24,368 nucleotides of DNA. Source: a virus. A program made the translations under genes and the position numbers. The notes below the pieces were generated by a model, which was given only the letters and a program-made list of their open reading frames with translations, did no database searches and was not told the origin of the DNA. The stretch is taken from positions 1 to 24,368 of the IMG/VR virus record IMGVR_UViG_3300048588_000239. One strand, written 5' to 3'. Positions 4,792 to 24,368 of the stretch are shown one piece after another (position 1 is the stretch's first letter; every line of letters begins with the position of its first letter).

Positions 4792-6268
4792 GTTCGGCAC
4801 CCTCCGCAACTTCGACAACCCGACGTACGGTGACCGTCTCGCGCTGACCGCTCGCCTGCTGAACAAGCCGTACATCCCCTGGCAGCAGTACGTCGCTGAT
4901 GTGCTCGGCGAGGTCGACGCCCGCACCGGGATTCGCGTCTACCGTGAGGGGCTTGTCACCCTGATGCGTCAGGGCGGGAAGACGACGTTCATCGTCAGCT
5001 TCAAGTCGCACCGCGCCCTGGACTGCACTCCGCAGAACCCGCAGACGATCCAGTTCGCTGCGCAGGACGGCATCGAGGCGAAGAAGAAGTGGCTCCAACA
5101 CGCGAAGCTCATCAAGCGCACCGCGCTCGGCGTGCGGCTCGTCGAGGGAACACCGACCACCTCGAACGGCAAGGAGATCCTCGAGTGGGACACGGGCTCG
5201 ACGGAAGTCCCTCTCTCCGGCAGTGAGGGCTCCGGTCACGGAGACACCCTGAATCTCGGCGTCGTCACCGAGGCGTTCGCCCACAAGGACGACCGCTACA
5301 TGCTGACCATGCGGCCAGCCATGAACAACGACCCCAACGCGCAGCTGCTCGTCGAGTCGACCCAGGGCAACGCACAATCGATCTGGCTCAACGAGACCAC
5401 GCAGGAGTACCGCGACCGGTACGCCGTCGACGACGGCCGCGAGCTCACCGAGAGCCGCATCGCGTACTTCGACTGGTCCTTCGCTCCCGAGGACGACATC
5501 TTCTCCCCGGACACCTGGCGGCGGCGCATCCCGCAGCTGGGTCACCTCCTGCGTATCGAGGAAGTCGAGACCGCGGCGCGCAACGCGACAACGCCGAAGA
5601 AGATCCGCGCGTTCGCCCGCGGCTTCGGGAACGTCGCCGACCTGGGCGCCGGCGAAGGATCTCTCTTCGACGAGACGTACTGGGAGGACACGGAGACCGA
5701 CGACGACATCATCGGTCTCCGTGCGCTCACGTTCGACGTCACGAACGACCGAAGCTGGTCGAGCCTCGCCTGGGCCGGGGTGAACCGCGCTGGCGACATG
5801 CAGTCCGAGCTGATCAAGCACGAACGCTCCGTGCACTGGGTCGTCGCGGCCGCGGGCGACATCTTCGATCGCAACCCGAAGATGCGCCGCCGGATCTACT
5901 GCGCACCAGGCGGACAGGCCGTGACGCTCGAGTCCGCGTTCCGTCGCGCAGGGATCGACCTGATCATCCTCTCCCGCTCCGAGTACGCCGGCGCCGCCGG
6001 CCAGTACTTCGCAGGGTGCGGCGACTCAGACGAGCTCGCATCCGACGAACCCGAACCGCGGATCTTCCACAAGGCGTCGCTCGGCCAAACCCCGCTGCAC
6101 GTCGCGATTGGTGGAGCCGCGTGGACCACCATCAAGCCCCGTGTGTGGGACAGCGGCCGCTCGTCCACCGTCATCTCCCCGCTCGTCGCATGCTCGATCG
6201 CGCCGTGGGCCTACCAGATCGAGCTCGAGGCGAAGCCCGTCGACGACATCCTGCAGACGTTCGCCTGA
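4718..6268 (+). CDS. terL: Terminase large subunit (516 aa)
   Basis: The start is the ATG at 4718, with AAGGAGG about six bases upstream inside the terS coding region. The ATPase domain comes first: a Walker A-like loop LMRQGGKTTF (about residues 82-91), a Walker B-like strand LGVVTEAF ending in the catalytic Glu (about E185), and a coupling motif STQGN (214-218). The nuclease domain follows, with GSLFDETYW near 315-322, the FDVTND acidic strand (about D340), and a late WDSGRSSTVISP segment typical of the RNase H-like nuclease end. Length is normal for the family. It powers DNA translocation into the prohead and cuts the concatemer. The position before the Walker B Glu-Ala is Thr where many relatives have Asp. 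Confidence 0.95.
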   Translation: MARRSRSSSSKQALGFPSYLDVPPRFGTLRNFDNPTYGDRLALTARLLNKPYIPWQQYVADVLGEVDARTGIRVYREGLVTLMRQGGKTTFIVSFKSHRALDCTPQNPQTIQFAAQDGIEAKKKWLQHAKLIKRTALGVRLVEGTPTTSNGKEILEWDTGSTEVPLSGSEGSGHGDTLNLGVVTEAFAHKDDRYMLTMRPAMNNDPNAQLLVESTQGNAQSIWLNETTQEYRDRYAVDDGRELTESRIAYFDWSFAPEDDIFSPDTWRRRIPQLGHLLRIEEVETAARNATTPKKIRAFARGFGNVADLGAGEGSLFDETYWEDTETDDDIIGLRALTFDVTNDRSWSSLAWAGVNRAGDMQSELIKHERSVHWVVAAAGDIFDRNPKMRRRIYCAPGGQAVTLESAFRRAGIDLIILSRSEYAGAAGQYFAGCGDSDELASDEPEPRIFHKASLGQTPLHVAIGGAAWTTIKPRVWDSGRSSTVISPLVACSIAPWAYQIELEAKPVDDILQTFA

Positions 6269-21924: not shown

Positions 21925-21953
21925 GTCGTGCCCGGAGCGGTCGCCTGGTTCGG

Positions 21954-21966
21954 TACGCTCGCGAGC
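21954..21966 (+). promoter_or_regulatory. Candidate -10 element for a leaderless channel transcript
   Basis: TACGCT (21954-21959) lies seven bases before the ATG at 21967, so transcription would begin at or near the start codon. Leaderless mRNAs with TAnnnT boxes are common in actinobacteria. No ribosome binding site precedes the ATG, and no convincing -35 is at the usual distance (TTGTCG at 21923-21928 is too far upstream). Confidence 0.45.
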
Positions 21967-22686
21967 ATGTATGGAGCTCGCCTCGCCCGCTGGGATCACG
22001 CCGCCGAGTGGCCGCTGACGGTCGCCGCGGTCCTGTTCCTGATCGCGTACGCGACGCAGATCCTCGCGCGAGACGCCGGCGTGTGGTCCGCGGCCGCGGA
22101 AGTTGTCCTGTGGGTCACGTGGGCGCTGTTCGCGATCGACTACGTCGTCCGGCTGACGATCACCGAGAACCGGCGCTCATGGTTCTTCCGACACCTCCTG
22201 GATCTCGCGATCGTCGTCCTGCCCATGCTGCGGCCGCTACGCCTCATGCGGTTTCTGACGATCCTCGCGATCATCCAACGCGGCGCGGGGTCCATGCTCC
22301 GCGGCCGTGTCGTGGTCTACACCGTCGGAGCGACCGCGCTCGTGATCCTCATCGCCGGGCTGGCTGTTCTCGACGCCGAGCAGGGGCAGGGGGGCAGCAT
22401 CCAGAACCTCGGAGACGCGATCTGGTGGGCGTTCGTCACGATCACGACCGTCGGGTACGGCGACTACTTCCCCGTGACTGTCACAGGGCGGATCGTCGCG
22501 GTCGGGCTCATGGTCGGCGGCATCGCGCTGATCGGTGTCGTGACCGCCACCCTCGCGTCGTGGATCGTCGAGCGGGTGTCCAACGAGACCACCGATAAGG
22601 CGGCGACGACGTCGCAGGTCGAGCAGCTGCGCGCCGAGGTCGCCGAGCTCAAGCAGATGATCAGCGAGCTGCGCCTATCGCGATGA
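21967..22686 (+). CDS. Voltage-gated-type potassium channel (239 aa)
   Basis: The product is a complete bacterial six-helix potassium channel subunit. Helices S1 and S2 are near residues 16-35 and 41-62. An S3/S4-like stretch is at about 76-104 (DLAIVVLPMLRPLRLMRFL), with spaced Arg as in a voltage sensor. S5 is near 115-135. The pore helix leads to the K+ selectivity filter TVGYGD (residues 161-166), and S6 follows (IVAVGLMVGGIALIGVVTA). The C-terminus is a short coiled coil (QVEQLRAEVAELKQMISEL) that could tetramerise. The ATG at 21967 is preferred to a GTG at 21928 because the -10 box lies just upstream of it. It is unrelated to virion assembly and looks like a cargo gene of host origin. 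Confidence 0.93.
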   Translation: MYGARLARWDHAAEWPLTVAAVLFLIAYATQILARDAGVWSAAAEVVLWVTWALFAIDYVVRLTITENRRSWFFRHLLDLAIVVLPMLRPLRLMRFLTILAIIQRGAGSMLRGRVVVYTVGATALVILIAGLAVLDAEQGQGGSIQNLGDAIWWAFVTITTVGYGDYFPVTVTGRIVAVGLMVGGIALIGVVTATLASWIVERVSNETTDKAATTSQVEQLRAEVAELKQMISELRLSR

Positions 22687-22691
22687 GTTCC

Positions 22692-22738
22692 GGTGCTCCC
22701 CCCGAGAATCGAACTCGGCACACCTGCCGTGTAAAGGC
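22692..22738 (-). other. Attachment-site core: 3' part of tRNA-Val (UAC)
   Basis: On the minus strand this is the last part of a tRNA. The anticodon loop TTTACAC (anticodon TAC, 22731-22733) is followed by stem GGCAG, variable loop GTGTG, T-stem CCGAG, loop TTCGATT, T-stem CTCGG, acceptor strand GGGGAGC, A and CC. The 5' side of the anticodon stem reads CAGCC instead of the CTGCC needed, so identity with a full tRNA ends near 22738. The D-arm and 5' acceptor are absent. Forty bases away is the 3' end of the integrase. This is best read as attP (or an att junction): integration would rebuild the host tRNA. The core length of about 47 bp is my estimate. Confidence 0.82.
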
Positions 22739-22776
22739 TGGTTGCTGACCCAGAGCGGAGAGCGTCGACCGAGAGT

Positions 22777-23652
22777 CTACGCGGCGCGACGGAACGACCG
22801 GTCGGGGATCGGTCGCGGTGGCAGCATGACGATGCCTTCACGCTTGAGTCGGTCGGAGACGCGAGTGTAGATCTGGGTGGTCGCGAGGGACTCGTGCATC
22901 ATGAGCTCCGAGACGACCCGGATGTCGACGCCCTGCTCGACGAGGTCGGTGCCGAAGGAGTGGCGGAGGCTGTGTGCTGTGAGTCGGGGGTCGGTGATGC
23001 CGGCGCGGCGGATCGCTTTGCCGATGAGGCCGGTCACCGCGTTGCCGGAGATGTGTCCGGGTCTTCCGCGTCGCGCGGGGAACCAGAACCCCTCGGGCAT
23101 GGATGCCGCGAGCTCCTCGATCACGGGGTGCAGCGGGAGGGTGCGTGTCTTGCTGCCCTTGCCGGTCGTGACGATCGTGCCCGAGCGGAGGTCGATGTGC
23201 CGGCCCTCGACGGCCGCGATCTGCGAAACCCGGAACCCCTGGTAGTACCCGAGGAGGATCATGGCCCGTGTGCGCCTGTACGCGCCGCTGTTGAGCATCG
23301 CGTCGATCTGTTGAGGGGTGAAGGGCCTGGGTTCATTCCTGGGCGCTCTGACGGGCTCCAGGCGCTCCGCAGGGTTGATCGCACAGTAGCCTTCGTCGAC
23401 CGCGAACCGGTAGAACGCGATCAGCACCGCCCGGTTCACCCGCCTCGTGCCGGGTGTGACACCATCCCGACCCATGAACATTCGCGCATCCCGCGCGGTC
23501 GCCTCGAGCAGCGGCACGGTCGCCGCGAACGTGTTCAGAATGCTCCGGTACGTGCGGATGGTCTGCGGGCTCAGGTTCCGCGCCCGCTGGCTCGCGGCGA
23601 AGTCCTCCAACGCGACCTGTTCGAGCGCGCGACAATCATCGGTGTCCATCAT
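22777..23652 (-). CDS. int: Tyrosine integrase (291 aa)
   Basis: The start is the ATG at 23652 (a second ATG follows directly), with a GGGGAAAG site just upstream. The N-terminal about 100 residues form a SAM-like core-binding domain (DFAASQRARNLSPQTIRTYR). The catalytic domain has all expected residues: R141 (QGFRVSQ), a Lys in the TGKGSKTR hairpin (165 or 168), H227-x-x-R230 (HSLRH), H253 (MMHES) and nucleophile Y262 (TQIYTRV). It is short and resembles XerC/D-type integrases without an arm-binding domain. Its 3' end lies next to the tRNA-Val core, the usual int/attP layout. It would insert the phage at the tRNA-Val gene. Confidence 0.95.
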   Translation of the reverse strand: MMDTDDCRALEQVALEDFAASQRARNLSPQTIRTYRSILNTFAATVPLLEATARDARMFMGRDGVTPGTRRVNRAVLIAFYRFAVDEGYCAINPAERLEPVRAPRNEPRPFTPQQIDAMLNSGAYRRTRAMILLGYYQGFRVSQIAAVEGRHIDLRSGTIVTTGKGSKTRTLPLHPVIEELAASMPEGFWFPARRGRPGHISGNAVTGLIGKAIRRAGITDPRLTAHSLRHSFGTDLVEQGVDIRVVSELMMHESLATTQIYTRVSDRLKREGIVMLPPRPIPDRSFRRAA

Positions 23653-23695: not shown

Positions 23696-23733
23696 CCCTT
23701 GGTCACCGTATGCGGCGCGGTCTGGGGGAGTGC

Positions 23734-24182: not shown

Positions 24183-24358
24183 GACACGCTCCGCAGCGGG
24201 ATCACCGGCGCGAGCCACTCGGACTCAAACCGCACAGTTTGCACCGTTACTGACGGCGGTTCGCTCGGCAGGTCCAGGAACAGGGAGCGGTCACCGTCAG
24301 GATCGTCGAGCGTCACTGAGCGGTACGCCGCATAGAGCGCGTCCGGGTCGACTCGCAT
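24179..24358 (-). CDS. Hypothetical small protein, possibly incomplete (59 aa visible)
   Basis: A minus-strand frame runs from the ATG at 24358 to the TGA at 24179-24181. It encodes an acidic protein beginning MRVDPDALYAAYRSVTLDD, with FLDLPSEPPSVTVQTV in the middle and PVIPLRSVS at the end. The stop overlaps the next start, which supports it as a real operon member. The frame is open to the window edge, and the site before this ATG (GGGA, three bases away) is poor, so the true start may lie outside. Function not recognised. Confidence 0.6.
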   Translation of the reverse strand: MRVDPDALYAAYRSVTLDDPDGDRSLFLDLPSEPPSVTVQTVRFESEWLAPVIPLRSVS

Positions 24359-24368
24359 CGGTCCCGCG

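Follow-up and report, generated by a model that had tools for sequence, protein, structure and literature searches.

A complete atypical tRNA-Val(UAC) gene beside the integrase gene of a probable Microbacteriaceae phage: a possible case of tRNA-dependent lysogeny

The minus-strand feature beside the integrase gene of the phage described here is a whole phage-encoded tRNA-Val(UAC) gene and not a tRNA 3' half, and on balance it probably serves a tRNA-dependent lysogeny, in which it would replace the host tRNA-Val(UAC) broken by integration. The window, that is, the whole stretch of DNA that we analysed, is a 24,368-base linear viral contig from IMG/VR with phage genes for portal, protease, capsid, tail tape-measure, tail and endolysin proteins. 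Its DNA and protein similarity points to phages of Microbacterium and other actinobacteria, and the host is probably a member of the Microbacteriaceae. The tRNA gene (22692..22763, minus strand, 72 nt), besides which no further tRNA was detected in the contig, stands on the same strand as the integrase gene, 13 nt downstream of the stop codon of the latter. A gene for an ion-channel-like protein of 252 aa (21928..22686, plus strand; PF07885 Ion_trans_2, E = 1.7e-17; also PF00520) runs convergently with the tRNA gene at a distance of 5 nt and is a neighbour only. No sigma-70-like promoter was seen near the tRNA gene.

The initial annotation had described positions 22692-22738 as the 3' part of a tRNA-Val(UAC) whose 5' half was missing. 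Indeed, the UAC anticodon loop, the T-arm and the 3' acceptor strand are all present there on the minus strand: the anticodon TAC (22731-22733) stands in a 7-nt loop (TTTACAC), the T-arm (22702-22718; CCGAG-TTCGATT-CTCGG) is perfect, and the 3' acceptor strand GGGGAGC (22695-22701) is followed by ACC, consisting of A73 (22694) and CC (22692-22693). The 3' part also includes the 5-nt stretch GTGTG on the minus strand. The 5' half, contrary to the annotation, is present as well. The 5' acceptor strand GCTCTCC (22757-22763) pairs 7/7 with GGGGAGC, with one G-U pair, and next to it is a D-arm (22744-22756) with a 3-bp D-stem (GCT/AGC) around a GGG-containing loop (CTGGGTC); the anticodon arm (22722-22742) is extended and has an A:A mismatch within its stem. 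Since 20% of shuffles offer a 7/7 partner within 32 nt, the acceptor pairing taken alone is not significant, and we dropped it as sole proof of a tRNA. The case for a complete tRNA is firm because it is built on homologous position and covariation.

Among phage sequences, this region is matched best by a tRNA annotated as tRNA-Val(tac) in Microbacterium phage Big4 (ON637770; 78% over 63 nt, gap-free), and the alignment spans the very half that had been supposed missing. The two tRNAs are alike in the length from acceptor to anticodon, the type of D-arm, the A28:A42 mismatch and the anticodon loop, but they differ in the sequences of the acceptor and T-stems, where the pairs are compensated; furthermore, Big4 is a 192-kb phage and its tRNA-Val(tac) is not beside an integrase. 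Pattern scans of viral contigs revealed further members of the family (L040, L041/L043, L042 and L083/L086), each placed among many other tRNAs, and the lineage of this aberrant tRNA-Val(UAC) is otherwise seen in the tRNA arrays of large phages. When six distinct sequences were aligned, standard pairing was found in 126 of 126 cells (21 modelled pairs in six sequences), compared to 44-47% of cells in a control with the partners slid by one column. Twelve of the 21 pairs had compensatory changes on both sides, and none of 500 shuffles matched the pairing and double-change values of this alignment. The A28:A42 mismatch, which had been read as the break in pairing where the tRNA ends, is real, but it is common to all six distinct members of the family and therefore is not a junction scar. 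In the shape common to the family, the acceptor adjoins the D-stem directly (0 nt), the D-stem has 3 bp and is separated by one base from the anticodon stem, which is extended by two pairs and contains an A:A, and the variable region has 3 nt. An extended anticodon stem and a shortened linker between acceptor and D-arm are also characteristic of metazoan mitochondrial tRNA-Ser(UGA), which is similar to the window tRNA in shape only and differs in isotype and origin.

For detection, we used a covariance model, R1, made from the tRNAs of other phages only (Microbacterium phage Big4 and IMG/VR contigs), with the window left out. R1 found the window copy with 81 bits (E = 2.6e-17), whereas the runner-up position in the window had 13.6 bits; with this score and the 126/126 pairing, the window copy shares its covarying secondary structure and the A28:A42 mismatch with the rest of the family. 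ARAGORN called a tRNA-Val(tac) at this place in its mitochondrial mode and did not call it in its bacterial mode, and Rfam RF00005 at the gathering threshold had zero matches in the window. At five family loci (L038, L041, L042, L083 and L086), 58 other tRNAs passed the RF00005 gathering score and no family member did. Standard tRNA models miss these tRNAs because they have no linker between acceptor and D-arm, a D-stem of 3 bp and an extended anticodon stem with the fixed A28:A42 mismatch. These results show that the short-D-arm phage tRNA is a conserved, covarying class that escapes Rfam at its gathering cut-off. In the part of the literature that we searched, we found no description of phage tRNAs with short D-arms. 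A survey of 400 Microbacteriaceae with R1 gave 18 with matches at 39-46 bits, of canonical type (tRNA-Val(CAC/GAC)) on those inspected; we rejected them as phage-type tRNAs, since the seven inspected were ordinary tRNA-Val(CAC) genes. Such canonical tRNA-Val(CAC) genes, which in small Microbacteriaceae genomes score 39-46 bits, may be distant kin of the phage family.

The gene upstream of the tRNA encodes a tyrosine integrase of 291 aa (22777..23652, minus strand; PF00589, E = 1.1e-26; PHROG integrase, E = 1.1e-52). Its stop codon is 39 nt from position 22738, and the annotation had thus correctly placed an integrase 3' end close by. The catalytic residues R141, K165, H227, R230, H253 and Y262 are invariant in the integrase alignment, and a separate N-terminal arm-binding domain is not apparent. 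Relatives with 47-66% identity were found in Curtobacterium, Microbacterium, Leucobacter and viral contigs, the closest being those of Curtobacterium (66%), and in the tree the window protein is nearest to the Curtobacterium Val-site integrases, its exact placement not being fixed by the tree. Most of the relatives have CACCGTGGATGTCGTCGGTTCGATCCCGGCAGGGCCCAC or a close variant of it upstream of the integrase gene on the opposite strand. This sequence is the 3' half of the host tRNA-Val(UAC), and it is preceded by a P-side motif like GCCAACCG that is shared among the relatives. At least 15 distinct loci of related integrases lie beside a tRNA-Val(UAC) 3' half and two at tRNA-Ala. We rejected the assignment of the relatives' cores to tRNA-Glu, based on CTC/TTC loops, since the genomes show tRNA-Val(UAC) 3' halves joined to P-side sequence. 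These comparisons place the window integrase in a group that integrates into the host tRNA-Val(UAC) gene.

At 3.09 Mb in the genome of Microbacterium sp. CBA3102, the two copies of a 40-bp repeat enclose an element of 16.8 kb whose far end holds an intact tRNA-Val(UAC); therefore, canonical elements rebuild tRNA-Val(UAC). The canonical tRNA-Val(UAC) prophages of Microbacterium and Curtobacterium resemble the window phage in having a related integrase (58-66%), the P-side motif and tRNA-Val(UAC) as the target, but they keep an exact core of ~40 bp and rebuild the tRNA, and no phage tRNA was detected beside their integrase genes.

Several other observations were made on these loci. In the two loci at tRNA-Ala, both in Leucobacter (L013, ~484-531; L018, ~5660-5740), the tRNA-Val site is replaced by a tRNA-Ala(UGC)-like 3' half, which is a target switch inside the integrase group. 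Elements of ~15-18 kb in Curtobacterium and Microbacterium, measured from the integrase-side fragment to the intact tRNA-Val(UAC) (L006, L007, L010, L011, L014, L015 and L125), are small for prophages and are possibly small siphoviruses or satellites. Predicted open reading frames ending in PEGLEPPTSSVKTRGLAT... (L003, 584-997; L004, 1606-1950) extend across the 3' half of tRNA-Val in the att site, so that any protein match in that part would be an artefact. A tRNA-Ser(CGA) gene (L017, 3073-3163) may be either a further target or a tRNA of a phage; the integrase ~3 kb away from it has 49% identity and lacks the tRNA-Val site. A 57%-identical integrase of the Val-site group (L098 in G800) has no tRNA-Val core within 1.5 kb on either side and is another candidate short-core system.

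The window has a candidate attP at 24221..24275 on the plus strand, ~570 nt upstream of the integrase gene, with strand and side as in the relatives; according to an att profile and the comparison with host tRNAs, it is a putative decayed tRNA-Val(UAC) 3' half. The profile was made from the att sites of 17 relatives and run over the whole window with nhmmer, and its best match was at 24221-24272 on the plus strand (E = 0.0029; second match, 0.3). Of 46 Microbacterium-genome tRNAs, tRNA-Val(UAC) was the closest to the candidate (26/36 ungapped; second, 21/36), and a gapped alignment with it reaches into the acceptor strand. The gapped score was equalled in 2 of 5000 simulated (Markov) upstream regions, and a gapped match as good occurred somewhere in 11 of 300 simulated whole windows. 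The exact common core is CACCGT (24242-24247), with 10/11 matches over GTTTnCACCGT. A hybrid of the host 5' and the phage 3' half was not called as a tRNA in bacterial mode; the lenient mode called it with 3/5 anticodon-stem pairs and a weak T-stem. The longest exact share between the window and the 46 host tRNAs was 14 nt, the same as in the reversed-window control, and the other host tRNAs were rejected as targets, since none had an exact share beyond this control. The sequence TCACCGT at 23703-23709 was also considered as attP and rejected as weaker and without profile support.

These comparisons showed that, as judged by sequence, 24221-24275 resembles the tRNA-Val(UAC) att site of the relatives, the match being a moderate one, and we infer that it is the active attP used by the window integrase. 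Because the contig is incomplete at its right end, a canonical attP could exist beyond position 24368. The earlier proposal that attB is the host tRNA-Val(UAC) gene thus finds support in the at least 15 sites of relatives and in the diverged upstream copy, and not in positions 22692-22738, from which it had been argued.

Lysogeny that depends on a phage tRNA was described for the phages Fionnbharth, LeBron, Gaia and Mollymur (Guerrero-Bustamante and Hatfull 2024, PMC10865867). In these systems, the core at which the tyrosine integrases act lies within a host tRNA gene and measures 8-17 bp; integration does not restore this gene, and the lysogen survives on a tRNA of matching isotype encoded by the phage. 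Related phages whose core is full restore the gene and carry no tRNA (PMC10865867). The scheme that we favour for the window phage is similar. The integrase would insert the phage into the host tRNA-Val(UAC) gene; because the attP copy at 24221-24275 appears decayed to a ~6-bp core, the host gene would lose its working 3' half upon integration, and its function would be taken over by the phage tRNA-Val(UAC) at 22692-22763. In this scheme, the tRNA would be expressed in the lysogen and needed there. The published systems and the window phage have in common a tyrosine integrase, full-core relatives that target a host tRNA gene and a short core kept by the phage; in Gaia, the phage tRNA is downstream of the integrase gene (PMC10865867), as it is in the window. 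They differ in isotype (Lys, Ile2 or Leu in the published systems versus Val(UAC)) and in host, the window phage being probably one of Microbacteriaceae and known here from sequence alone. Unlike the published integrases, which have an arm-binding domain, that of the window is short with none evident, and its tRNA, unlike theirs, is missed by standard tRNA models. The agreement of the tRNA isotype with that of the target gene of the integrase group speaks for tRNA-dependent lysogeny, whereas the exact core of ~6 bp, shorter than the 8-17 bp of the published cases, speaks against it. No lysogen with this integrase or tRNA was found, and no strong R1 match was obtained in 296 Microbacterium genomes (16 candidates scored per genome); as a control for this search, R1 did give matches in four phage records. 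Concerning the origin of the system, we see an evenly balanced possibility that it was caught in evolution, with an attP that keeps the decayed tRNA-Val 3' half, including part of the acceptor strand, after the aberrant tRNA-Val(UAC) had been acquired.

It is possible, if unlikely, that the tRNA-Val(UAC) is a working tRNA of lytic growth that supplements translation or replaces a nuclease-cut host tRNA, its proximity to the integrase gene being coincidental. All other family members found are in large tRNA arrays of phages with no evident link to integration, evasion of tRNA-cutting defences by phage tRNAs has been documented (PMC10264068, PMC11555353), and the unusual stem could aid such evasion. 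This is opposed by the presence of a single tRNA in the contig, by an isotype that is exactly that of the target gene of the integrase group, and by the attP-like site, apparently decayed from the same tRNA, that stands beside the integrase gene. Furthermore, GTA usage of the phage is not above that of the host sample (1.3-1.8 and 1.4-3.1 GTA codons per 1000, respectively); because this codon is equally rare in both, codon compensation is not needed, and we rejected it as the purpose of the tRNA. That the gene is a functionless, decaying remnant of a phage tRNA, as its non-canonical structure and its failure to be called by ARAGORN in bacterial mode and by Rfam might suggest, is very improbable: the oddities are common to other members, including the annotated Big4 tRNA-Val and those of intact arrays, the window copy forms 21 of 21 pairs and differs from its relatives by compensatory changes, and the T-loop, the GGG D-loop, the anticodon and A73 are intact. 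Scarcely credible is the reading of the initial annotation, in which 22692-22738 would be an attP core and would rebuild, on integration, a host tRNA-Val(UAC) gene with the same 3' half; the 3' half is tRNA-like and close to the integrase stop, but a full covarying 5' half exists, the att sites of the relatives differ in sequence and are on the other side of the integrase gene, upstream of it, and the core was absent from the genomes searched. An exact match to the 46-47-nt core was found neither in viral contigs nor in 84,980 bacterial and archaeal species genomes; none with up to three mismatches was present in 11 genomes carrying related integrases, and a looser pattern had no match in 395 genomes of the class. 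In Microbacteriaceae, the tRNA-Val(UAC) gene has a different sequence, and the ~30-50 bp of identity with a host tRNA 3' half that mark a core were not found for 22692-22738.

If tRNA-dependent lysogeny is the correct reading, the isotype Val, and probably also a new host family, would be added to a lysogeny strategy that was described only in 2024. It would also bear on the question left open in PMC10865867 of whether loss of the core or gain of the tRNA comes first, because the core in the window looks decayed rather than absent. Since Rfam misses the short-D-arm class at its own cut-off, phages that seem to be without a complementing tRNA may have one. Tool-dependent oversight of this kind would mean that tRNA-dependent lysogeny, if it operates here, may be under-counted, because standard tRNA finders miss such tRNAs.
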